A stretch of 38,267 bases of DNA. It comes from Candidatus Mediterraneibacter intestinipullorum. Its GTDB lineage: Bacteria; Bacillota; Clostridia; Lachnospirales; Lachnospiraceae. Of this stretch, positions 3,788 through 38,267 are shown one piece after another. The notes below the pieces were generated by a model, which was not told the origin of the DNA, did not search any database, and saw nothing but the letters and a program-made list of their open reading frames with translations. Numbering within the stretch: the first letter of the stretch is position 1; each line of letters begins with the position of its first letter. Both the position numbers and the translations under genes were made by a program. The stretch lies in contig DWYM01000075.1 of NCBI GenBank assembly GCA_019118665.1, forward strand, positions 1 through 38,267, written 5' to 3'.

Positions 3788-5036
3788 TGTACACCTCCGT
3801 AATCTCTGTATATCCCTGTTCCGCAAGCTGTTCCTTCTGGAACTTCTTGTTCTTCTTCATATTGGCAAGCATTACCTGATAGCCGTTTTCCCGGTCTTCG
3901 CGAGCCTGCTCCAGTACCTGGAGAAGTTTCTCCCGGGGCAGCTTCTTCTCCAAAAGATAGGCTTTTTTCTTCCTGCTGGCGGGCACCTGGTACCCGCGTT
4001 CAAGAAGGAGCATAACGATACGCTCGAAACCGACAGAGAATCCCACTGCCGGCGTGTCCTGCCCGGTAAACCTGCCGATCATCTCATCATAGCGCCCGCC
4101 GCCGCCGATGCTTCCGCCAAACTCATCCATGGAGATTTCAAAGATCGTGCCTGTATAATAAGACATGCCCCGCACGAGCGTCGGGTCAAAGCTCATCTGA
4201 AATTCCGCTTCCTTCTGGCTCTCCACGCTGGTGATGATCATTTCCAGCGAATCCGCCGCCTCAGGCGCGAGATACCCCTCCAGTTTCTCTTTACACCTGC
4301 GGACACCCTCCACATCGTTCGTAATCTCTTGAAAGAGCGCAAGATATTTTTCCACCGAGCTTTCCTCATAGCCGTTCTCCTTTAACTCAGCCGCCACGCC
4401 GTCCAGACCGATCTTGTCCATCTTGTCCAGAGTGATGAACACGCTGTCATAATCCGTTTCCCCAAATCCGCTGTACGCTGCCATCGCCTTTAAGAAACGG
4501 CGGTCATTGATACGGATGGTAAAGTTCTTAAAATCCAGCTTCCCGAGAAGGGTGGTCGTTGCCAGGATCAGCTCGATCTCCGCCAGATTGGACGGCTCTC
4601 CCAGGATATCGATGTCACACTGCATGAACTGACGGTAACGCCCTCTCTGGGGACGGTCCGCTCTCCACACATTTCCCATCTGGAGCGCTTTGAAAGGAGA
4701 AGGGAGCTCATTTGCATGGTTCGCGTAATATCTGGAAAGAGGGACCGTAAGATCATAGCGCAGTCCGCCGTCCACAAGATCTGACTCTTCCTCCGCCTCG
4801 TCCAGCTTTAACTTTTCCCCGCGCTTCAATATCTTGAATATGAGCTTCTCATTGTCTCCACCCTGCTTACTGCACAGGTTCTCGATATGCTCCACGCAGG
4901 GGGTCTCCATGGAGGAAAACCCGAACGTCCTGTAGGTATCTTTGATCAGCCCGATCACATAATCCCTGATCTCCATCTCAGCGGGCATGATGTCTTTCAT
5001 GCCGGTCACCGGCTTCTTCTTCAGCGCCATAGCCAT
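3780..5036 (-). CDS. hisS: Histidine--tRNA ligase, divergent lineage
   Basis: HisRS charges tRNA-His. The protein is 418 aa. Class II motifs are clear: GMKDIMP near the N-terminus, motif 2 (VWRADRPQRGRYRQFMQCDID), the histidine-A motif LVRGMSYYTGTIFEI, and the glycine loop GGSIGGGGRYDEM. Several details differ from the usual bacterial enzyme. QCDIDILG and INDRRFL resemble archaeal/eukaryotic HisRS rather than the bacterial FHQ-type motif 2. The usual Asp in RGxDYY is Ser. The C-terminal anticodon-binding region is short (about 65 residues). An ATG 6 nt downstream (5030) is an alternative start with slightly better spacing from AAGGAAG. The 5' end overlaps hemZ by 16 nt. Confidence 0.93.
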   Translation of the reverse strand: MAMALKKKPVTGMKDIMPAEMEIRDYVIGLIKDTYRTFGFSSMETPCVEHIENLCSKQGGDNEKLIFKILKRGEKLKLDEAEEESDLVDGGLRYDLTVPLSRYYANHANELPSPFKALQMGNVWRADRPQRGRYRQFMQCDIDILGEPSNLAEIELILATTTLLGKLDFKNFTIRINDRRFLKAMAAYSGFGETDYDSVFITLDKMDKIGLDGVAAELKENGYEESSVEKYLALFQEITNDVEGVRRCKEKLEGYLAPEAADSLEMIITSVESQKEAEFQMSFDPTLVRGMSYYTGTIFEISMDEFGGSIGGGGRYDEMIGRFTGQDTPAVGFSVGFERIVMLLLERGYQVPASRKKKAYLLEKKLPREKLLQVLEQAREDRENGYQVMLANMKKNKKFQKEQLAEQGYTEITEVYNG

Positions 5037-6487
5037 TCTTCCTTTCGTTCTATCATTTCATCGATCCGGTCAATGTACTCTGTGATATTTTTCACATTTT
5101 CAACATGGACGATATCGATCTTCTTTCCACCCTCCGTCCTGATGGGCGTGTCAAGCAGCATCTTCGTGGACGCGCCCGCGCCCGCGGCAAGGATCGTCTG
5201 CTTTTCTTCCATAATCAGTATATTGTATATTCCCGCTTTGTCAAGCTTCGCATATCCTACATTTTCAAAATTCCCGGCAATATTTTTCTGCCGGTACAGG
5301 TAATAGGGCTTCAGTCCCATCCTCTCCGCGCTCTTCGCCGCGGCGTCCACCATCTGAGAGATCTCGGAATGCAGATCCATGGTCCTGCCCTCCTGCCCGA
5401 ACTTCGCCGCCCGCTTGATGGCAAGGGAATGGACAGTCAGGCTGTCCGGACCCATGGCTTCGATCTGGGAAAGCGTATCCGCCATGTCCCCCGCGTTTTC
5501 TCCGGGGAGGCCCGCGATCAGGTCCATATTGATATTGTCAAATCCAAGCCGCCGCGCCATTGCGTACGCCTCACGGATCTCCTCAACGGTGTGCTTCCGC
5601 CCTACCAGATCCAGCGTCTTCTGCTGCATGGTCTGAGGGTTTATGGAAATCCGTGTCACAGGGAACTCTCTCAGAACAGAGAGTTTTTCTTCTGTAATAC
5701 TGTCCGGACGTCCCGCCTCCACGGTGAACTCCGCCGAGTGGCGCAGATCAAAGTTCTCCGCGATCTCCGTGAGCAGCCGCCGAAGCTGGTCCGGCTCCAG
5801 TGTGGTAGGGGTACCCCCGCCAATGTACACAGTGTCCGGATAGCGTCCCCGGGTCATCCTCCCGATAGCCTGGATTTCTTTTATCAGGGCGTCCAGATAG
5901 GTGTTCACCCTGTCTCTCCACACTTCAATGGGAGAGGAGCTGAACGAGCAGTAAGAACACACACTGGGACAGAAGGGAATGCCCACATACAGGCTGAATC
6001 CGCCTCTGCAGTCAAGCCTCCCGAGAAGTTCCTTTTCCCGGCAGGCGATTTCATATCCAAGCTCTGCCTTTGCAGATGTGACAAAATATTCTTTCTTAAG
6101 AAATTTTGTAATTTCCTCCCGGTTCTTTCCATCCTCTAACATCTGCATTGCCAGCTTTGTAGGGCGGACTCCGGTGAGAGTTCCCCAGGCAAGCTCCCTG
6201 CCGGACTTTTCACACAGGAACCGGTAGACTCTGCGGGTGACCGCGCGCTTCTCTGCCTGTGCCATCTCCTCGTCCGTAACAGGAAGGCTGCCCGCCGGTC
6301 CCCCCAGTTCTCCCCGGATCTCCTCCGGCGCAAGGGAAAAGCAAGAGCCTCCCGGCAGCTTAAGCTCCACGAGAGATTCTTGCTTTTCATCAACCCTCTG
6401 CGAGATTTCCTCATTTGGGAAAAATGCTTTTGTGATATGATATACATTATAAGTCAGTTTATTTTTTTTACATGCGATCCCGATCAT
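5021..6487 (-). CDS. hemZ: HemZ-type radical SAM coproporphyrinogen dehydrogenase family protein
   Basis: The 488-aa protein is a radical SAM enzyme of the HemN/HemZ family, which performs oxygen-independent oxidative decarboxylation of coproporphyrinogen III or related chemistry. The 4Fe-4S site is CPSVCSYC (C173, C177, C180), followed by GGGTPT (about 223-228). The N-terminal ~165 residues are the HemZ-specific extension lacking in HemN; the C-terminal HemN domain is present. HemZ proteins in Clostridia commonly sit here, between an MBL hydrolase and hisS, even in organisms without full heme synthesis, so the physiological substrate is uncertain. The start is supported by GAAAGGAAA about 8 nt upstream. 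Confidence 0.92.
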   Translation of the reverse strand: MIGIACKKNKLTYNVYHITKAFFPNEEISQRVDEKQESLVELKLPGGSCFSLAPEEIRGELGGPAGSLPVTDEEMAQAEKRAVTRRVYRFLCEKSGRELAWGTLTGVRPTKLAMQMLEDGKNREEITKFLKKEYFVTSAKAELGYEIACREKELLGRLDCRGGFSLYVGIPFCPSVCSYCSFSSSPIEVWRDRVNTYLDALIKEIQAIGRMTRGRYPDTVYIGGGTPTTLEPDQLRRLLTEIAENFDLRHSAEFTVEAGRPDSITEEKLSVLREFPVTRISINPQTMQQKTLDLVGRKHTVEEIREAYAMARRLGFDNINMDLIAGLPGENAGDMADTLSQIEAMGPDSLTVHSLAIKRAAKFGQEGRTMDLHSEISQMVDAAAKSAERMGLKPYYLYRQKNIAGNFENVGYAKLDKAGIYNILIMEEKQTILAAGAGASTKMLLDTPIRTEGGKKIDIVHVENVKNITEYIDRIDEMIERKEEWLWR

Positions 6488-6544
6488 GTCTTATTTCCTT
6501 TCAAAACCTGCTCCCCGGATTTAGCCAGGGATCCAGGTCCATGC

Positions 6545-7168
6545 CTACAGAAAAGGATTGTATTTCTTCTCATATCCGATTGTCGTCTCATCCATGTGCC
6601 CCGGACAGACTTTTGTCTCATCCGGCAGGACAAACAATCTGTCCCGGATGGAATTTACGAGCCGGTCCATATTCCCTGTGGGCAGATCCGTGCGCCCGAT
6701 GGAACCGTGGAAGAGCGTATCTCCGCTGAACAGAACATTTTCCGCCGGGATATGATAACAGCATCCTCCGGCAGTGTGTCCCGGGGTGTAGATTACCCGG
6801 ACCGCGAATCCGGCGGTCTCAAGGCTCTGCCTGTCTGTCACATATTCCGCTCCGGAGAAGGTATACGGCTGCCCCTGCATAGACGCGGAAGAATTGAGCT
6901 GCGCGCTCTCCAGCAGCTCCCGCTCCGCCTCATGGGCATAGACAGGCACGGAAAACTCCTTTAAAAACCCATCCAATCCCATAATATGATCAAAATGTCC
7001 ATGGGTCAGGAACACTGCTTTTACTTCCAGCCCCATGTCTCTGATATAGCTTATAAATTCGGGAGGACACGCCGCGGGATCAACGACAAAGCATTGCTTC
7101 CTCTCCTCGTTGACCGCGATATAGCAGTTTGTCCCCACCGGACCAAGTACAAATTTTCCTATCCTCAT
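6545..7168 (-). CDS. Metallo-beta-lactamase-fold hydrolase (glyoxalase II-like)
   Basis: This 207-aa single-domain MBL protein carries the metal motif THGHFDH (H56, H58, D60, H61). Further ligands lie in YTPGHTAGG and in the late FSGDTLF and CPGHMDET motifs. The family includes hydroxyacylglutathione-hydrolase-like thioesterases, and the short length without a C-terminal GloB domain fits the YcbL/YqgX type. It is likely cytoplasmic. It sits 37 bp after relA and 57 bp before hemZ in one operon. GAAGGAG precedes the ATG by 6 nt. The substrate cannot be read from sequence. Confidence 0.9.
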   Translation of the reverse strand: MRIGKFVLGPVGTNCYIAVNEERKQCFVVDPAACPPEFISYIRDMGLEVKAVFLTHGHFDHIMGLDGFLKEFSVPVYAHEAERELLESAQLNSSASMQGQPYTFSGAEYVTDRQSLETAGFAVRVIYTPGHTAGGCCYHIPAENVLFSGDTLFHGSIGRTDLPTGNMDRLVNSIRDRLFVLPDETKVCPGHMDETTIGYEKKYNPFL

Positions 7169-7205
7169 GACGGCTCCTTCTCCTTCCCCTCAGCTGCCCG
7201 GCCAC

Positions 7206-9509
7206 TCAGCCGGCAGTCCTCTCGATATCAATGATGCCTTCCACCTGCCGCAGCTTCTCTATCACACTGTTGAGTTCCTCCCTGCCGTGCACGATAAATC
7301 CTGTATCAATGGTGGCGGTGCCTTTTTTGCTCGTGCGGATATTCATGGATTTCACATCGATCTTTGCCTCAGTGAACACTCTGGAGAGATCCATGAGCAT
7401 CCCCTGCCGGTCGGAAGCATACATTTTCAGCTCCGCCAGGTACTGGCCTCCGCCCTCTGTCTCCGAAGTATCCTCCCACTCCGCGTCGATCAGTCTCGCC
7501 CGCTCTTCATCGGAAAGATGCAGCATGTTCACGCAGTCTGTCCGATGGATAGACATCCCCCTCCCCCGGGTGACAAAACCAACGATCTCATCCCCTGGCA
7601 CAGGGTTACAGCACTTGGAGAAGCGGACCGCCATGTCATTGATCCCCTTGACCACGATACCGCTCTTGGACTTGGCGATGTGGACCTTTCTGCTGTTCGC
7701 CTCGGAAATCCTCTCAAGGATCGTCTCGTCCGTGATCTCTTTCCTGTGCTCTTTCTCATATTCTTCAGAGAGACGGTTCACCACCTGTCCCTCCTTCAGG
7801 CCTCCGTGCCCGATCGCAGCCAGCACCGCGTCCCAATCGCGGAATCCGTACTTCTTCTGCACGATCTGCATGTATTTCGGCCTCAGGATATCCTGCAGAT
7901 TGATGGATTTGCCCCGGCAGTAAGCTGTGATCAGCTCCTTGCCTTTGATGATATTGTCCTCTTTAAATTCCTTCTTAAACCATTGATTGATCTTGTTCTT
8001 TGCCTGGGTGCTCTTGACGATATTGAGCCAGTCCCGGCTCGGTCCTTTGGAGTTCTGGGACGTCAGGATCTCGATCCTGTCACCGTTCTGTATCTTGTAG
8101 TCAATATTGACCAGCTTGCCGTTGACCCTTGCGCCCACCATCTTATTGCCCACCGCACTGTGGATGGCGTAGGCAAAATCCACTGGCGTAGAGCCGTTTG
8201 GAAGGTTCTTTACATCCCCATTTGGCGTAAAGCAGTACACGTCCTCCGCAAACAGGTCCAGGTCGCCCTTTAACAGACTTAAGAACTCCCGGTTGTCGGA
8301 CATGTCACGCTGCCACTCCAGGATCTGACGCAGCCAGTTCAGCTTGGCCTCCTGGGACTCCATGCTCTTCGCCGCGTCCGAGCCTTCTTTATATTTCCAG
8401 TGGGCCGCGATACCATATTCCGCGGTCTTGTGCATCTCTTCCGTGCGGATCTGGATCTCAAAGGGCTGGCCGGAGGGTCCCATCAGCGTGGTGTGGAGCG
8501 ACTGGTACATATTTGGCTTCGGCATGGCGATATAGTCCTTGAAGCGCCCCGGGATCGGGGTGTACATCTCGTGGATCACTCCCAGCGCCGCATAACAGTC
8601 TTTAACAGAATCCACGATGATCCGCACCGCGAACAGATCATACACCTCGTCCAGCGTCTTGTTCTGATTCACCATCTTTTTGTAGATGCTGAAGAAATGC
8701 TTCACACGTCCGTAAACCTTTGCCTGGATATGCGCGTTTGCCATATGCTTTGAGACTTCCGCTACAATCTGCTGGACAAACTCCTCCCTCTCTGTCTTGC
8801 GGGCGTTCAAGTCTTTCACAAGCTGGTAATAGACGTCCGGTTTCCAGTATTTGAGCGACAGGTCGTCCAGTTCTGTCTTTATCTTGGAGATACCGAGCCT
8901 CTGGGCGATGGGAGCATAGATATCCATGGTCTCCCTTGCCTTCTCCTGCTGCTTTTCCGGAGTCATGAACTCCAGCGTGCGCATATTGTGAAGCCGGTCA
9001 GCCAGCTTGATGATAATAACGCGGATATCCTTTGCCATGGCAAGGAACATCTTCCTCAGATTTTCTGCCTGGACCTCCAGTTTATCCTGAGAATAACTGA
9101 GCTGCCCCAGCTTCGTGACGCCGTCCACAAGGAGGGCCACCTCTTCTCCGAACTCCCTTGTGACGTCATCCAGCGTCATATCTGTATCTTCTACCGCGTC
9201 GTGGAGCATCCCTGCCACAATGGTCTCTTTGTCCATCTCAAGATCAGCCAGTATGATGCCCACCCAGAGCGGATGGATGATATACGGCTCTCCGGACTTT
9301 CTCGCCTGGTCCTTGTGAGCCTCCTTCCCGATCCGGTACGCTTTTTCGATCATGGAGATATCCGCGGAGGGATGGTATTTCCTCACACGGTCGACCAGCG
9401 CCTGATAGAGCTGCTCAGGGTCCTGATAATCCTCCGGCGCTTTTACGGCATGACCGTCCACGATCTCAAGGTTCTTATTCAACTGTACATATTCCGGCGT
9501 CCCTGCCAT
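7206..9509 (-). CDS. relA: Bifunctional (p)ppGpp synthetase/hydrolase, RelA/SpoT family
   Basis: The 767-aa Rel protein makes and degrades the stringent-response alarmone ppGpp. Domains in order are an N-terminal HD hydrolase with HDAVEDTD (about 103-110, intact, so hydrolysis is expected), a synthetase domain with GRVKHFFSIYKKM and MYQSLHTTL, TGS (FTPNGDVKNLPNGSTPVDFA), a helical region, the zinc-finger segment FSKCCNPVPGDEI, and a C-terminal ACT domain. I chose the ATG at 9509, with AAGGGGGAA about 7 nt upstream, over an in-frame ATG 11 codons earlier. It heads the relA-MBL-hemZ-hisS-aspS run, joining starvation signalling with tRNA charging. Confidence 0.96.
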   Translation of the reverse strand: MAGTPEYVQLNKNLEIVDGHAVKAPEDYQDPEQLYQALVDRVRKYHPSADISMIEKAYRIGKEAHKDQARKSGEPYIIHPLWVGIILADLEMDKETIVAGMLHDAVEDTDMTLDDVTREFGEEVALLVDGVTKLGQLSYSQDKLEVQAENLRKMFLAMAKDIRVIIIKLADRLHNMRTLEFMTPEKQQEKARETMDIYAPIAQRLGISKIKTELDDLSLKYWKPDVYYQLVKDLNARKTEREEFVQQIVAEVSKHMANAHIQAKVYGRVKHFFSIYKKMVNQNKTLDEVYDLFAVRIIVDSVKDCYAALGVIHEMYTPIPGRFKDYIAMPKPNMYQSLHTTLMGPSGQPFEIQIRTEEMHKTAEYGIAAHWKYKEGSDAAKSMESQEAKLNWLRQILEWQRDMSDNREFLSLLKGDLDLFAEDVYCFTPNGDVKNLPNGSTPVDFAYAIHSAVGNKMVGARVNGKLVNIDYKIQNGDRIEILTSQNSKGPSRDWLNIVKSTQAKNKINQWFKKEFKEDNIIKGKELITAYCRGKSINLQDILRPKYMQIVQKKYGFRDWDAVLAAIGHGGLKEGQVVNRLSEEYEKEHRKEITDETILERISEANSRKVHIAKSKSGIVVKGINDMAVRFSKCCNPVPGDEIVGFVTRGRGMSIHRTDCVNMLHLSDEERARLIDAEWEDTSETEGGGQYLAELKMYASDRQGMLMDLSRVFTEAKIDVKSMNIRTSKKGTATIDTGFIVHGREELNSVIEKLRQVEGIIDIERTAG

Positions 9510-31852: not shown

Positions 31853-32158
31853 TTAGTCAATAATACCATTTTCTTTAAGTTTTGTCTCTATTTCGGGAGC
31901 TGACATTACATTTTTAAGAGGGATCACTTTGACGCCTTTCTTCTCAGCGTCACCGAACATATTCGCGAAATTCTGAGCGCAGACAACTACATCGTACTGT
32001 GCGGCGCTGCTCTTCCCCTCTGACAGCGGACAATGATGGACTTTCCCTGCTGTGATGCCATTTTTCTTGAGGACCTTCTCAAGAGCCATCTGCGCCATGA
32101 GACTGGATCCTGCTCCATTTGCGCAGCATACTAAAAATTTCAAATTCTGACCTGCCAT
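31853..32158 (-). CDS. ulaB: PTS system ascorbate-type IIB component
   Basis: The 101-aa cytoplasmic phosphotransfer protein has the P-loop CCANGAGSSLMAQ, with the phosphocysteine most likely C12. It accepts phosphate from the IIA histidine and passes it to the sugar bound by IIC. Length and motif fit the ascorbate/galactitol (SgaB) family. It follows the IIC gene by 49 bp. Confidence 0.94.
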   Translation of the reverse strand: MAGQNLKFLVCCANGAGSSLMAQMALEKVLKKNGITAGKVHHCPLSEGKSSAAQYDVVVCAQNFANMFGDAEKKGVKVIPLKNVMSAPEIETKLKENGIID

Positions 32159-32207
32159 AATATTTCTCCTTTCTCAGAAATCCTATTTCTGTACCAGTGT
32201 ACCAGAC

Positions 32208-33707
32208 CTATTTTGCCTGGGCCTGTTTAGCCTTCAGTTCTTTATATGCTTCGTAGTCTTCCGTCATAAGGAAATATCCTTCTTTATCCTTGCGGTACTG
32301 GATCTGCGGGATCGCAAACAGTACCACGGCTACGATGGCAAGTCCCGCATAGCTTAAGAACTTCATCGCTCCGGTAAATACCGGCCATACAACTGCCCAG
32401 TCCCACATGCCGAGGTATCCGCCGTATGCCGCCATTCCGACCCATCCTGCGATTATGGCAGATCCGAATACCTGGCATAACCCGGAAATAAACGGAAGGA
32501 TCAGAGTTGCCTTCAAGCCGCCCTTCTCGTTAGCAAACACTCCAATGGTCGCATTGTCAAAGAATACCGGAACGAAGCCGCAGATAACGAGTACCGGACT
32601 CTGCATCAGCACCAGGACCGCGATCGCAAGGATCTGTCCGATAAAGCCGGCAATAAATCCAAGAGGAACCGCATTGGACGCGCCAAAGCCAAAGATGACC
32701 GCACAGTCAACGCCGGGCACGGATCCCGGAAGGATCTTATCGGCAATTCCCTGGAAGGAAGCGGATAATTCCGCAACAAATGTTCTTACGCCAAGCTGCA
32801 GGATCGCAAGATAAACAGCAAAGTACAGACATGTCTGGATCACATAGAATACCATACTCTGCCCTTCTGCCAGGAAGCCTGCATCTATAAGATAATCTCT
32901 TCCGAGTACACAGAGAATGGCTCCGAAGAAGATCAGCATCAGGATAGAAGCTGATACCATGTTATCGTTGAACATAGACATGAAACCTGGAAGCTCGATA
33001 TCTTCGATCCTCTTCACTTTTTTCCCTTTGTTTTTCTTGTTTTCATTTCCAAACAGTTTTCCCGCGAGCCAATAGTTGAATGCCGCACCAAACATCTGCT
33101 GATGGGCCAGACAGAAGCCTGCTCCGTCCGTCACTTCCTGACACGGCTTGATGGTGAGGTTTGATCCGACAGCCCAGTATGCGCCAAGAAGAATGGCCAT
33201 AACTACCAGCATTCCAACACGGTTTGTGAGGAGTCCGGGTAGGGCAAACATGATGAGCCAGTAAGCGGTTGCGCTCTGCTGCACCTGCACATGCCCTGTT
33301 GTAAAGAGGGCGCGCATTTTTGTGATCTTTGAGAAACGCACCAGGAGGATATTTACGATAAACGCGATAAAGAGAAGAATCATTACATCTCCAAACCCTT
33401 TTCCGAACACTTCCTCCACACCGGCGGTTACTGCGTTCTGTCCAAAGTATGGGTCGATTACCATTGCGTCCATGTTAAAACGCTCTCCCAGCCCCACAAG
33501 CACAGGGCGGAAGTTATTCGTAAGCCCACCGGAGCCTACCGTCAGTATCAGATATCCCACAATAGCCTTTAACGTACCGCCCAGTATGTCATACCAGGGT
33601 TTTCTTAAAAGTATGTATCCAAGCATGACGATCAGGCCGATCATAAACGCGGGCTGCTGCAAAATATTAGTTGCGAAATATTCCCATGCAGTTACTAAAA
33701 TATTCAT
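32208..33707 (-). CDS. ulaA: PTS system ascorbate-specific IIC permease
   Basis: The 499-aa membrane protein is of the UlaA/SgaT fold. About 11-12 membrane segments are visible. Early motifs include AFMIGLIVMLGYILLRKPWY and the KAIVGYLILTVGSGGL region; later PGVDCAVIFGFGASNAVPLG is characteristic. It imports L-ascorbate with phosphorylation at C6 by IIB. GAGGTGAC is about 6 nt before the ATG. It lies 57 bp after the IIA gene. Confidence 0.95.
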   Translation of the reverse strand: MNILVTAWEYFATNILQQPAFMIGLIVMLGYILLRKPWYDILGGTLKAIVGYLILTVGSGGLTNNFRPVLVGLGERFNMDAMVIDPYFGQNAVTAGVEEVFGKGFGDVMILLFIAFIVNILLVRFSKITKMRALFTTGHVQVQQSATAYWLIMFALPGLLTNRVGMLVVMAILLGAYWAVGSNLTIKPCQEVTDGAGFCLAHQQMFGAAFNYWLAGKLFGNENKKNKGKKVKRIEDIELPGFMSMFNDNMVSASILMLIFFGAILCVLGRDYLIDAGFLAEGQSMVFYVIQTCLYFAVYLAILQLGVRTFVAELSASFQGIADKILPGSVPGVDCAVIFGFGASNAVPLGFIAGFIGQILAIAVLVLMQSPVLVICGFVPVFFDNATIGVFANEKGGLKATLILPFISGLCQVFGSAIIAGWVGMAAYGGYLGMWDWAVVWPVFTGAMKFLSYAGLAIVAVVLFAIPQIQYRKDKEGYFLMTEDYEAYKELKAKQAQAK

Positions 33708-33764
33708 TTTGTCACCTCATTCTCTTTCACATAGTACATAGTGATACTTTTCTTCTGTCTGTAT

Positions 33765-34220
33765 CTAATCCAGGTATTTTTTCTGGATCTCCAGCAAATC
33801 AGATGTGGTCTCAGCCTCTGCCAGCTCCGCCACAAGCTGCTCATTGCAGAGCATCTCGGAAAGTCTGCTCATATTATCCAAATGCTGGTCAGGGTTACAG
33901 GAGGCAAGTGTAAAAAACAACTGCGCCTCCATCTCCGGATTGCCCGGCTCAAAGCTGACGGGCTTTTTCAGTTTCATGAAGGCAATCTCTGTCTTATGCA
34001 CGCCCCGGGCCCCCTCCTGCGCGTGAGGCATAGCTATGTTGGGAGCGATCACGATATATGGACCATATTTTTCCACACAGGCTATAATGTCCTCTTTATA
34101 GTTTTCTTCCACTGTGCCGTCGGCCTCCAGCGTTTCACAGCTCATGCGGATCGCATCTTTCCAGTCTTTGGCCTCTTCCGCGAATCTTACATGATTCTTT
34201 TCCACAAATTCTCTTAACAA
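33765..34220 (-). CDS. ulaC: PTS system ascorbate-type IIA component
   Basis: The 151-aa protein is of the mannitol/fructose-IIA fold. The phosphohistidine is in IAMPHAQEG (H66 with the start chosen here). I favour a TTG start at 34220, because GGGAGGGAA lies 6 nt upstream and the product then aligns with other UlaC proteins. An in-frame GTG at 34235 would place the ribosome site inside the coding region. It follows ulaG by 19 bp. Confidence 0.92.
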   Translation of the reverse strand: MLREFVEKNHVRFAEEAKDWKDAIRMSCETLEADGTVEENYKEDIIACVEKYGPYIVIAPNIAMPHAQEGARGVHKTEIAFMKLKKPVSFEPGNPEMEAQLFFTLASCNPDQHLDNMSRLSEMLCNEQLVAELAEAETTSDLLEIQKKYLD

Positions 34221-34239
34221 CGTCTTCCCTCCCACTTAG

Positions 34240-35343
34240 TTATAGAAGCGAGCGGAATGGGATGTTCTGAGGTGCTTCAAAACAATCCTCAAACCCTCTT
34301 CTGTGATGATACGCAAGTTTGTCTTTATCTGTGGGATATACATATTTCCCTCCCACTTCCCAGAAGAAGGGGTGGAACCGGTACCCAAGACGGTCTTTTT
34401 TCATATCATAGAGAACCTTGATCTCATTGACGTCAGCCATGAAATTTGTCCACACATCATAATGGATGGGGATCACGACTTTACACCTGAGAGCCTCGGC
34501 CATGCGGAGCACATCCACAGATGTCATCTTATCCTGCATGCCCACAGGATTCTCTCCGAAGGAGCCAAAAGCCACGTCAATGTCATAGTCCTTTCCATGT
34601 TTCGCAAAGTATATAGAATAGTGAGAATCGCCGCTGTGATAAATATTGCCTCCCGGCGTCTTTAACAGGTAATTTACTGCTTTCTCATCCATATCCGTCG
34701 GACATTTTCCTGTCAGTTCCTCCCGGTCAGGTCCCTGTGAATCTGTGGTCACAATACAGGTCCGGTCAAAAGAGTCGAGGGCAATGATCTCAATGTCCTT
34801 GATCTTGATAGAATCCCCCGGTTTTACGGCGATGCACCGTTCTGCCGGAACCCCCCACTTCTGCCAGAGCTCTACAGATTTTTTCGGGCCGATAAAGGGT
34901 ACTGGGATCTCCCGCCCATTTTCATCGGTGGTCGTCATGTTACTCTTGATCACATGGGCCGCATATTCCGCGCTCATATGATCCTGATGATAGTGGGTTG
35001 CAAGAACTGCATCCACTGCCTTAATGGCAAATGGATCAATGACAAATGGGACAGCTCTCAGATTTGGCTGCATTGCTCTCGCGCCGCACATATTCGCCAT
35101 CTGATGCCCTGGTTTCATAGTACCATCCCCATGAGTCCGTTTGCCATTTCCGCACCATAGATCAACTGTGATATTGCATCCGCCGGGAGTCTTAAACCAC
35201 ATTCCGGTGCATCCGAGCCACCACATAGCGACGGTCCCCGGCTTCACTTCTTCCATTTCAATCTCTTCGTTCAGCCAGGTGCCCCATTCCGGAAATGTGC
35301 TCATGATCCAACTCTCTCTCGTTATCTCGTCGATCTTGCTCAT
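34240..35343 (-). CDS. ulaG: L-ascorbate-6-phosphate lactonase
   Basis: UlaG opens the lactone ring of L-ascorbate 6-phosphate to give 3-keto-L-gulonate 6-phosphate. The 367-aa MBL-fold protein has THYHQDHMS (H117, H119, D121, H122) and further ligands in YHSGDSHYS and IPIHYDVW. The N-terminal [20 protein letters not shown], the MWWLGCTG motif and the C-terminal RGFEDCF match UlaG closely. It is the first gene of the operon, 42 bp after the promoter -10. AAAAGGAGA precedes the ATG. Confidence 0.96.
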
Positions 35344-35379
35344 TTCATCTCTCCTTTTATGATTTTTTTGTTTTATTTA

Positions 35380-35450
35380 TATGAATACTATCATTTTTTA
35401 TGAATATTAACAATCATTTTATATGTTCGTTAATTAATTTTATGTTCGTT
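35380..35450. promoter_or_regulatory. Operator-like direct repeats in the ula promoter
   Basis: On the plus strand there are four 10-bp repeats: TATGAATACT (35380), TATGAATATT (35399), TATGTTCGTT (35422) and TATGTTCGTT (35441). Within each pair the spacing is 19 bp. The first pair overlies the -10 and -35, the second lies just upstream. TATGTTCGTT is close to a GlpR-type half-site. Probable target of the operon's DeoR regulator. Confidence 0.55.
35385..35413 (-). promoter_or_regulatory. Promoter of the ula operon
   Basis: On the minus strand TTGTTA (35413-35408), a 17-bp spacer and TAGTAT (35390-35385). Confidence 0.7.
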
Positions 35451-35500
35451 TTTCACTTTTCTGCTATTTTACTAGCTTTTATATGTAGTTTTTATGCACT

Positions 35501-35566
35501 TTATCCAATAATACGATAATATATAATTAAATTTGCAACACCAAACATTGCACAAAATTTAGACAT
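35501..35566 (-). CDS. Possible 21-codon peptide gene
   Basis: A short ORF encodes MSKFCAMFGVANLIIYYRIIG. GGAAGGAG lies 8 nt before the ATG, one of the best ribosome sites in this AT-rich patch. It follows the bacteriocin-like gene by about 106 nt with a hairpin between. It might be a leader peptide, a degenerate second peptide, or chance. No double-glycine motif is present. Confidence 0.3.
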   Translation of the reverse strand: MSKFCAMFGVANLIIYYRIIG

Positions 35567-35581
35567 AAAATATACTCCTTC

Positions 35582-35620
35582 CTGAGAGACAAGTTTTGTT
35601 AGTTCACTTGTCTGACTCAG
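35582..35620 (-). terminator. Hairpin after the bacteriocin-like gene
   Basis: A 12-bp stem with a 2-nt bulge (35582-35593 with 35607-35620) and a 13-nt loop. No T run follows on the minus strand; instead the GGAAGGAG of the 21-codon ORF does. It may protect the peptide mRNA or control the short ORF. Confidence 0.45.
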
Positions 35621-35672
35621 AAGGGAGCAACTACCACTTCAGCTAGTGAGACATTCCTTTTCAGTCTGTCAA

Positions 35673-35831
35673 TCACTTTGATTTTGTTGCTGTGTTTGCA
35701 ATACTGAGACCAGTACTTATGACACCGCTGATGCAGCCAATGATACCTACAATAAGTCCTGCTAAAGCGATGCCAATACCGCCATCAACCTGGCTCATCT
35801 GATCTTCTGTCATCTGATTAAATTTTTGCAT
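35673..35831 (-). CDS. Double-glycine-leader bacteriocin-like peptide precursor
   Basis: The 52-codon gene encodes an 18-residue leader MQKFNQMTEDQMSQVDGG and a 34-residue core. The leader fits the PCAT-exporter recognition pattern: hydrophobics at -12, -7 and -4 (M7, M12, V15) and Gly-Gly at -2/-1. The core is hydrophobic, rich in Gly and Ile, with GxxxG at 25-29 and 32-36, one Cys (C33) and a polar Asn/Thr/Lys tail. These traits suit class II, notably two-peptide, bacteriocins. AAAGGGGA lies about 8 nt before the ATG. An HlyD-type export accessory gene is 0.9 kb upstream on the same strand. A signalling peptide is an alternative. Confidence 0.8.
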   Translation of the reverse strand: MQKFNQMTEDQMSQVDGGIGIALAGLIVGIIGCISGVISTGLSIANTATKSK

Positions 35832-35882
35832 TTCATTTTCCCCTTTCTGCTATTTTGTTTTTTGGGCGTCCGCGAAACACCG

Positions 35883-35907
35883 GAAACCCGCATCAATGCG
35901 GAGTTTC
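35883..35907 (-). other. Hairpin in the leader of the bacteriocin-like gene
   Basis: GAAAC-CCGCAT pairs with ATGCGG-A-GTTTC: about 11 bp with one bulged base, 52-76 nt before the start codon. This GC-rich island stands out in an AT-rich leader. The interval 35832-36050 otherwise holds nothing I can name; a TTGTAT-17-TGTATT pair on the minus strand at about 35950-35980 is a weak promoter candidate. Confidence 0.4.
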
Positions 35908-36050
35908 TTCTACATCATTATGTCCTTTCCCTAAGATGTTGTTCTGCTTTTAATACATTCTTCTCCCGCTTACAATACAAGTCGCAAAAATGTTGCATAA
36001 TAATACAAAACTGTCGAGACAATATCATATCATGGAACACACCGAGCTTT

Positions 36051-36287
36051 TTATTGTCTGTAAAGCTTAACATTAATAGGCTGATTTATTTTACGAATCC
36101 GTTTATAGACCTGCTCTGATCTGGGATTATCCCCACCATGAATCATTATCCATTCTGAGTAAATCCATGGTAAATAGCCATTCTCATATTCGGTATCGTA
36201 AACATAGTCCAATTTCAAATTGCCAAGTTCAATAAACTTTTTTACGGTATTCTCATTTATAAGGCGGTCATGGGTAATAAATTCCAT
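36051..36287 (-). CDS. Hypothetical protein, 78 aa
   Basis: The product starts MEFITHDRLINENTVKKFIE and has a Tyr/Trp-rich middle (YDTEYENGYLPWIYSEWIM) and a basic C-terminus. No membrane segment or known motif is visible. The ATG has no good ribosome site. It is in the same frame as the preceding gene, just 7 codons after that gene's TAA, so it may once have been its continuation or may rely on coupled re-initiation. An immunity role is conceivable from position only. Confidence 0.5.
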   Translation of the reverse strand: MEFITHDRLINENTVKKFIELGNLKLDYVYDTEYENGYLPWIYSEWIMIHGGDNPRSEQVYKRIRKINQPINVKLYRQ

Positions 36288-36308
36288 ATAAGCGATATCT
36301 CTATCACT

Positions 36309-36741
36309 TTATAGAAGTTCCTCCACTCGTTTAAATGACTCCAGCATCATTTCTTTTGGTTTTAATTTTTCAGGCAAAGTCTTAATGAGAAAAGCACGAA
36401 AGTGAAAACGAGCCACTTTCTGCTTGTTTACCTTTACATATTGCAGCATCAAATATTCATTTTGACGTTCAAATGTTCTTTCTTCCCTTAAGGACATAAA
36501 GTGGACATATTGGCTGAAAATATCAATTAAATCTATCAGTTCCCAATACTTATCCTCAACTTCCTCATAGGGCGTATTTTTCTTAAACGCCTCTAAATAA
36601 CCCCTCGTCCAATAGTTCTAATATCCGATCATTAACTTTTGATATTTTTCTCCCAAATCTTTGAGAATAAATAAAAACAGCTAACATAGCAAGAATAATC
36701 ACTACAGTAATTCCGACTAATATCCATAAAAACAAACGCAC
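36309..36741 (-). pseudogene. Frameshifted small membrane protein gene
   Basis: Read with one frameshift this gives about 143 aa: a GTG start at 36741 after AGGGGGGTGAG, a TM helix (about 3-25), then a charged helical cytoplasmic part (RKISKVNDRILELLDE, then GYLEAFKKNTPYEEVEDKYW, and SLREERTFERQNEYLMLQYV further on). The break is in a GGGG run (36601-36604): frame one stops at 36583, and removing one G joins it to the downstream frame ending at 36309. It could be a real mutation, a sequencing error in a homopolymer, or programmed slippage. The family is not recognised. It follows the HlyD-like gene by 24 bp. Confidence 0.65.
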
Positions 36742-36765
36742 CGCTTCTCACCCCCCTTTTAGAAG

Positions 36766-38139
36766 TTATTCTCCGAATTCTTCTTCATCCTTTAATATAT
36801 TGATTTTCTGCAAAATATAAGTCATCCAGCTTGTCTCTTTTGTTTCAATATTCGCCTGCACACTCATGTCATCTTTCAGAGTGAATTTTTCTGATTGAAC
36901 CGGTGTCTCATAAATTTTTTGAACTTCCCCATTGATATAGCCATAATCTCTGCTATCCAATCCGTCTACTGTCAATTTTACGTTTTGTCCATTTTTCACG
37001 AAGCCGATGCCGCTGCTTGGTACATTTAATGTCACTTGAAAATTATCAGCCTGGGTCTCGCCTGATGTCAAAATACCCACTATACTCCCAGAAGTCAATG
37101 CAGTATCTTTTGCAAGATCAAGCTTATAATAAATATAACCTGATTCCAATGCCTTTACAGCGTAATAACCCAGATCAGCATCAATCGATGCGATCGAGGC
37201 TTCAGTCTCCTTAATGGAAGTCTGTAATTGCTGCAATTTATTTTTCACTTCCACAAGGGCGGTAGCCTGCAAGTTATCGATTTCAGCCTGTACCGATTGC
37301 CATGCATCGCTGTTTGTATTTCTTGCCTGAACAAGCTGCTGATCAAGCGTATCAATTTGCTGCTGTACAGAGAGTATCTGCTGGTCAATATAGTTTTGTT
37401 TTTCTGTTTTATATGCGCCCAGCTCCTGCTCATATTGCGCTTTGATGATTGGATCTGTTTCTTCAGCCACTAATTTTTCAATATCCATGATATGAAGGTC
37501 GTAACTAGCCACTTGATTTTGATATATTTTCAGTTGTGCTGCATACACATGGGTCTCTGATAAAGCTCCACTATTTTCCATAGCACTGAGCAACTCCCGA
37601 TATCTTGCTTTTTGCTCACTCAAAGAATTTATTGCACTATCCGAAACCCCGGATTCCAATGCCCTGATCTGTGTGAGGTATTGTTCTACCTGTGCATAAA
37701 ACTGTCCCTCTTCTTCATTATACTGGAATGTATTCGTTCTATTGAGGACACAACTTTCCATACGATTTACCAATTCCTGCTGTCTTTTCGTTTCCTCCAG
37801 ATGCTTTTCTAACTCTTCTTTCTGCAAGTCAAGTTTGTCGCTTTGCAGTGACAGGATAGTTTCGCCTTTTTCCACATACTCTCCGTCCTGTATATAAACA
37901 TTATCCACAACACCATCTACAAATATCTGTACGTCTTGTACCTTATCTGTACGCTGGAGCGAACCCTGTACATCAATAGTCTCCTGTTTCTTTGTAAAAG
38001 AAAGAAATATACACACAGCGATAATGAGACCAAGAATTGTATAAACAAAAAATACAATAAATTTATAAGGGTTGAGGAATACAAACTCCTTTGTCAACCG
38101 TATATCGTCCATATTATTCAAACGGTTGAGTTTATTCAT
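36766..38139 (-). CDS. HlyD/MesE-type bacteriocin export accessory protein
   Basis: The 457-aa membrane fusion-like protein has one N-terminal TM helix (about 26-48), a biotinyl-lipoyl-like hairpin half (DGVVDNVYIQDGEYVEKGET, about 71-98), a long coiled coil with many Gln, Glu and Leu (about 98-330), the second lipoyl half (ALESGYIYYKLDLAKDTALTS), and a beta-barrel C-terminal part. This layout is that of the accessory proteins that work with peptidase-containing ABC exporters of double-glycine peptides. I prefer the ATG at 38139 (MNKLNRL); an ATG 4 codons upstream is nearer to AAAGGA. The exporter itself is not in the window. Confidence 0.88.
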   Translation of the reverse strand: MNKLNRLNNMDDIRLTKEFVFLNPYKFIVFFVYTILGLIIAVCIFLSFTKKQETIDVQGSLQRTDKVQDVQIFVDGVVDNVYIQDGEYVEKGETILSLQSDKLDLQKEELEKHLEETKRQQELVNRMESCVLNRTNTFQYNEEEGQFYAQVEQYLTQIRALESGVSDSAINSLSEQKARYRELLSAMENSGALSETHVYAAQLKIYQNQVASYDLHIMDIEKLVAEETDPIIKAQYEQELGAYKTEKQNYIDQQILSVQQQIDTLDQQLVQARNTNSDAWQSVQAEIDNLQATALVEVKNKLQQLQTSIKETEASIASIDADLGYYAVKALESGYIYYKLDLAKDTALTSGSIVGILTSGETQADNFQVTLNVPSSGIGFVKNGQNVKLTVDGLDSRDYGYINGEVQKIYETPVQSEKFTLKDDMSVQANIETKETSWMTYILQKINILKDEEEFGE

Positions 38140-38267
38140 GGTTATATCCATTCCTTTCGCTTCGCTCAGGCACAAAACGTTATGAAAATATTTTTCCTGA
38201 GCTTATTTTTCTTTATAATTCTTCTTGTAGGGAACTCGGTATACTACAAATCACGGGGAGGTGAGTG
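38140..38267. other. Window edge: open plus-strand frame and a Shine-Dalgarno-like motif
   Basis: On the plus strand an ATG at 38182 opens a hydrophobic frame (MKIFFLSLFFFIILLVGN) that is still open at the window end, but with no ribosome site. GGGGAGGTGAG at the very edge could serve a gene beginning just outside. On the minus strand a frame ending in a TAA near 38216 could be the tail of the gene upstream of the HlyD-like gene. CTCAGG (38165-38170) and CCTGAG (38196-38201) form a loose inverted repeat. None of this can be settled here. Confidence 0.25.

Follow-up and report, generated by a model that had tools for sequence, protein, structure and literature searches.

Does the short double-glycine (GG) peptide gene near one end of a Candidatus Mediterraneibacter intestinipullorum contig belong to a bacteriocin or peptide-signal locus, and in what state is that locus? 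The window analysed here is the entire contig C55 of the source genome (G000), 38,267 nucleotides in length, and the source assembly is fragmented (2.50 Mb in 123 contigs, 83% complete). A preliminary description had pointed to a 52-codon GG peptide gene accompanied by a same-strand HlyD-type gene, and both were borne out by the ORF listing at the positions given there: the peptide gene (52 aa, ATG start) at 35673–35831 and the HlyD-type export accessory gene at 36766–38139, each on the minus strand. The window would, with a probability of roughly 80%, hold the 3′ half of an operon-like locus dedicated to the production and export of a single unmodified class II-type GG peptide, a locus that is damaged here. 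The grounds for this reading are the gene order seen in L024, a MAG labelled uncultured Mediterraneibacter sp. with an apparent counterpart (G010:C65) in the window's genus, together with family assignments, conservation and past purifying selection. The locus is adjoined by ascorbate-type PTS genes (IIB, IIC and IIA; 31853–35343, minus strand), the same interval including an L-ascorbate-6-phosphate lactonase (626.9 bits versus a cut-off of 306). Downstream of the peptide gene lies a 21-codon ORF, MSKFCAMFGVANLIIYYRIIG (35501–35566, minus strand), preceded by the ribosome-binding-like AGGAAGGAG; as a gene it is at most a doubtful candidate. An Rfam scan of 34000–38267 gave no match at E ≤ 0.1.

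The peptide divides into an 18-residue leader (35778–35831, minus strand) and a 34-residue core (35676–35777, minus strand). The leader, MQKFNQMTEDQMSQVDGG, carries F, M, M and V at −15, −12, −7 and −4, the positions that the available portion of PMC7018657 specifies for GG signal sequences, and these four residues were found there in all 22 sequences compared (the window peptide, P0001–P0016 and P0029–P0033). Scored as a protein, the peptide reached 27.2 bits on Pfam PF10439 (Bacteriocin_IIc) versus a cut-off of 27.1, and 26, under the cut-off, in a six-frame genome search; on NCBIfam TIGR01847 (bacteriocin_sig) it was likewise just over the cut-off (15.9 versus 15.7). A first search returned 16 protein clusters at E ≤ 1, with the best homologue at E 2.8e-22, and a profile search at E ≤ 0.001 returned 26 clusters, i.e. 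the initial 16 and 10 more, 5 being distant (P0034–P0038). Across an alignment of 14 sequences, 16 of the 18 leader columns were invariant, as were 4 of the 34 core columns. The comparison with L024 is indicative of past purifying selection on the peptide: dN/dS was 0.135 over 51 codons (16 synonymous and 12 non-synonymous differences), 0.014 for the leader and 0.25 for the core. The frame is thus conserved among relatives, as judged from the homologue clusters and the alignment, and the lack of conservation that the preliminary description had named as fatal to its proposal does not apply. That the frame is a chance ORF rather than a gene is hardly credible, since the shortness of the ORF and its marginal Pfam score have to be set against the existence of homologues, the low dN/dS, the purine-rich GAAAGGGG ahead of the start codon and the presence of the peptide in the same place in L024.

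The locus is rare. It was found in 2/397 genomes of the family, 2/392 of the order and, with the peptide profile at E ≤ 0.001, 2/58 of the genus, the carriers in each survey being the window's genome and G010. At E ≤ 1 the count in the genus rises to 33/58, and the weak matches in the 31 further genomes (E 0.02 to 1) were left out of the count. The profile had no match among solved structures at E ≤ 1. The leader string KFNQMTE was not found in the literature searched, in which the terms double-glycine, bacteriocin and Mediterraneibacter never occurred together.

With the class II double-glycine bacteriocins (PF10439/TIGR01847) the locus shares a GG leader with hydrophobic residues at −15/−12/−7/−4, a short hydrophobic cationic core, and a C39 ABC exporter (in L024, with two stops) alongside an HlyD/MesE-type protein; it differs from them in a PF10439 score that, for the window peptide, lies only at the cut-off and in the accompanying 229-aa protein. 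The preliminary description had further taken GxxxG motifs as typical of the two-peptide class IIb. Two such motifs do occur in the window core, at core positions 7 and 14, but the motif loses its value as a mark of that class on comparison: of 18 distinct cores, 15 have at least one, 10 have at least two and 3 have none, and shuffled window cores contain at least one in 60% and at least two in 17.6% of cases. GxxxG is accordingly not conserved, and instead of two adjacent peptide genes the window holds one; the 0.33 kb that separate the peptide gene from its next same-strand neighbour contain no second ORF of at least 40 aa. The model for lactobin A/cerein 7B (TIGR03949) aligns with peptide residues 4–36 at 21.1 bits, just under its cut-off of 21.5, and the likeness to these bacteriocins is reduced by the missing second peptide in the window. 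A class IIb bacteriocin with its partner lost or elsewhere is consequently an improbable reading, even though the looser small-xxx-small motif is present in 18/18 distinct cores and the shared longest-contig value (10296) of P0013, P0014 and the 229-aa P0023 hints at two peptides on one relative's contig. L024 cannot settle the partner question because it ends 114 bases after the peptide. A single class II-type peptide is the reading retained here.

The full order of the locus is visible in L024: LytTR regulator, C39-peptidase ABC exporter, HlyD, ~229-aa protein and GG peptide. The regulator is read there in more than one frame; the exporter, which has two in-frame stops, comprises a C39 domain (4530–5012) and an ABC part (5046–6491 and 6507–6701, same frame); HlyD follows directly downstream (6698–8137), then the gene of the 229-aa family (8163–8852, one stop) and the peptide (9062–9217). 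Domain scores were 134.6 bits for C39, 135.4 for ABC_membrane, 118 for ABC_tran and 58.7 for LytTR. In the window's own genome, contig C119 has matching pieces at its left edge: a frame-broken regulator and the initial 63 exporter residues, with a partial C39 start of 58.1 bits at the contig edge. These 63 residues are identical (63/63) to those of L024 and G033, from which they are separated by 16 and 17 synonymous changes, respectively. The C119 pieces lie on the strand expected if C119 is situated right of the window, a linkage suggested by the gene order of L024. The remainder of the exporter is absent from the 83% complete assembly (no match above 45% identity), and a PF03412 scan of the same assembly gave only the partial C39 on C119 and one weak match under the cut-off; in this incomplete genome, GG peptides are thus seen with no more than a partial C39 exporter. 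C119 also encodes, 1 kb from the regulator, a free-standing 214-aa protein (L003:1943-2587) with a Peptidase_C39_2 domain (82.8 bits) and no ABC part, which is probably unrelated to the locus.

Two further genomes retain portions of the locus. In G033 the regulator is a 234-aa ORF and the exporter is open up to the contig end. G470 holds a deletion remnant between ftsH and uvrC (L063:7159-8966, G470:C1), in which the start of the regulator is fused in frame to the exporter and HlyD is truncated; the genus peptide-profile search gave no match in this genome. The exporter has a dN/dS of 0.035 between L024 and G470. Exporter matches at 1e-20 occur in 58/58 genomes of the genus, and among the matches listed all are at most 43% identical save G010:C65, G470:C1 and G033:C20. 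A C39-type exporter, the absence of which from the neighbourhood would have told against the preliminary description, is therefore part of the locus in L024 and in part on C119, and the proposal that the window carries one end of a locus for a bacteriocin or a peptide signal is upheld.

The description had also placed the exporter right of the window, and here only part of the claim survives: the C39 exporter belongs to the locus, as seen in L024 and on C119, but it is not the next thing to the right. An exporter directly right of hlyD is ruled out, the last 131 bases of the contig being the end of a multi-copy repeat (38137–38267) that abuts the hlyD start codon. C28:1-131, an end of another contig in the same genome, is identical to the repeat, which recurs at 94–99% likeness at places in G036, G014, G015 and G011. 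A copy at 73% in G056 stands ahead of two ORFs with DEDD_Tnp_IS110 and Transposase_20 domains, and to judge by this relative alone the repeat would be the end of an IS110-type mobile element. Since no transposase ORF accompanies the G036:C36 copy in the interval bounded by its neighbours, the repeat may be a solo end. The overlap of exporter and hlyD in L024 leads us to infer that the element splits the operon.

The HlyD-type ORF extends over 36766–38175 from a TTG, with the internal ATG at 38139 giving 457 aa. The protein is over the cut-off on PF13437 (34.5 bits) and comes closest to TIGR01000 (bacteriocin_acc, secretion accessory) with 108.3 bits, under the cut-off of 258.85. It is 22 residues shorter than the L024 protein (479 aa), which corresponds to one internal gap, and dN/dS between the two is 0.148. 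Three loci were returned by the HlyD search, of which only L024 was used; L025 and L026 were dropped as relatives, as they match query residues 1–20 and 1–15 only, mostly the repeat reading before the ATG. A plasmid search with the L024 HlyD gave 4 records at about 25% identity.

Between HlyD and the peptide lies an interrupted gene for a ~229-aa protein (36051–36741, minus strand), in two stretches in different frames, one of them with one TAG and one TAA. Neither this broken gene nor the repeat element at the hlyD start codon figured in the preliminary description. Members in 11 other clusters measure 216–237 aa, and the family was found in 2/58 genomes of the genus and in 1/398 of the phylum, the window's own. 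No Pfam match over the cut-off was obtained for the two members scanned, and the family profile had no match to PDB sequences at E ≤ 1. The best structure model (mean pLDDT 77.1; 54.6–63.1 for the other four) predicts a long N-terminal helix and an alpha/beta part. From its position alone, the protein is a candidate immunity or accessory protein of the peptide locus. Some of the interruptions could be assembly faults; cluster P0028, which matches the middle piece of the broken gene in the window and comprises 6 sequences on 7 contigs, speaks against this.

Upstream of the peptide gene, at 35985–36014 (minus strand), stands a paired 9-base direct repeat, ACAGTTTTG-N12-ACATTTTTG. LytTR proteins bind paired repeats of such a kind. 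L024 shares this upstream block, with both 9-mers and their spacing the same, and a scan allowing up to 4 mismatches gave no further copy of the pair in the window; an 8-of-9 pair at a gap of 12 was obtained in 2.2% of shuffles, rising to 6% for gaps of 11–13. The assignment as a LytTR box is suggestive only. A LytTR response regulator, as in blp/agr-type loci, was found in the locus (58.7 bits in L024, 61.4 in G033); the gene (L003:212-902 on C119; L064:852-1556) is one 234-aa ORF in G033 and is frame-broken in G000 and L024. Its receiver gave weak Pfam matches of 30.5 and 23 bits, starting only at residue 12 or 20, and by reading is without the usual acidic pair near the N-terminus; the receiver of the second system's regulator (see below) gave 67.1 bits from residue 8. 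No kinase was seen among the three upstream ORFs scanned in L024 (MarR-like, MatE and one without Pfam match) or among the next three larger same-strand ORFs on C119 (C39_2-like, Na/H antiporter and MscL), and the next ORF on the regulator's strand in G033 is a 775-aa ORF, FtsH-like by reading. These observations bear on whether the peptide is a pheromone, the exported core controlling the locus or other genes via the LytTR regulator. The regulator gene at the head of the operon and the paired repeat that both genomes carry upstream of the peptide gene would fit such a role, but the neighbouring ORFs scanned beside the regulator include no kinase, the receiver is matched only weakly and not at its N-terminus, where by reading the acidic pair is missing, and the core is long, hydrophobic and evolves faster than the leader. 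A pheromone function is on balance unlikely.

For the preferred reading, an exported class II-type peptide, family knowledge suggests that the LytTR regulator would bind the paired repeat upstream of that peptide's gene. The dedicated ABC exporter would use its C39 domain to cleave the 52-residue precursor behind Gly-Gly and, together with the HlyD protein, would move the ~34-residue hydrophobic, cationic core outside. Once exported, the core would most likely act as a narrow-range membrane-active bacteriocin, with signalling as the main alternative, and the ~229-aa protein would serve in immunity or as an accessory.

The locus has suffered in both genomes that hold the peptide gene. In the window's genome the regulator frame is broken (C119), the repeat sits at the hlyD start, HlyD has a gap and the 229-aa gene is interrupted, and in L024 stops or frame breaks affect the exporter, the 229-aa gene and the regulator; the peptide is intact in both. 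Because the locus is damaged in the window's genome, the route through its own exporter probably no longer yields exported peptide; the strain has thus probably ceased to make it by that route, though the peptide gene is intact. It is possible, if doubtful, that the locus is already dead in the lineage and that the peptide persists as part of a relic, intact only because decay is recent. The damage in the two genomes and the deletion remnant in G470 are in line with this, but both holders keep the peptide gene and the upstream repeat at a dS near 0.8, and the breaks differ in part between the genomes. A composite and rather improbable picture would have a LytTR regulator with a degenerate receiver working without a partner kinase, and a locus that retains its peptide gene and promoter box through repeated decay of the exporter, accessory and putative immunity genes and depends on the exporter of another locus or strain; the 229-aa family would then represent a novel type of immunity or accessory protein, and a peptide carried by a phage (L099) would use host exporters.

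The genus has a second GG system, represented at G010:C29, at C12 and C95 of the window's genome and in L065–L070. C12 (L105:11151-14079) carries GG peptides with broken exporter and HlyD pieces, and on C95 (L108:5960-11409) GG peptides are accompanied by a HATPase_c_5 kinase and a LytTR regulator; C12 and C95 presumably form one system. In the G010 copy the exporter measures 732 aa and unites C39, membrane and ATPase domains, but the HlyD gene is again split. The system resembles the present locus in its C39 exporter (41–43% identical among the matches listed), HlyD-type gene, GG peptides and LytTR regulator, and differs in having dissimilar and usually several peptides and, on C95, the kinase; its HlyD is about 22% identical to that of the locus over the full length (L065, L067, L069 and L070). 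The phage-borne peptide is a separate observation: L099:5584-5739 (IMGVR_UViG_3300006213_002324) encodes a GG-type peptide of 51 aa, the leader of which, MKKFNQMTEAQMSKTNGG, is almost the same, on a contig carrying phage terminase, portal and minor head genes. It scored 15 bits on PF10439, under the cut-off, and has P0034–P0037 as distant relatives. L099 gave no match to the exporter pieces of the locus; its peptide found only itself in viral contigs and nothing in phages, P0036 had no match in phages or plasmids, and neither the L099 nor the window peptide matched PHROGs. Two further viral-contig matches of the scan that gave L099 (A7), L128 and L129, were dropped as antisense inside a 679-aa ORF.

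Systems of this kind are well known and, to judge from sequence, the peptide is probably a bacteriocin. Bacteriocin_IIc-type peptides are reported in general terms in the accessible part of a rumen culture-collection survey (PMC13289728). In the text available from PMC4739721, pneumococcal 'cheater' strains in which the exporter BlpA is disrupted continue to respond and to produce immunity. The decay of the present locus resembles these strains, the nearest published pattern seen, in that a GG-peptide locus has a disrupted exporter; it differs from blp, as far as that text goes, in that the candidate immunity gene of the 229-aa family is broken too in the window and L024, that no kinase was found in the ORFs scanned, and that the locus is known here from sequence alone. 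Mediterrocin of Mediterraneibacter gnavus, described in the available portion of PMC12345188 as an 89-residue lactococcin 972-like protein with a Sec-type signal peptide, is a bacteriocin from the same genus and of a different kind. The locus thus adds a GG-peptide family and an unassigned 229-aa partner to a gut genus for which an unrelated bacteriocin, mediterrocin, has recently been described (PMC12345188, as far as that portion goes), and provides a gut case of bacteriocin-locus decay comparable with pneumococcal blp. If active, the core would be a candidate against related gut Clostridia.
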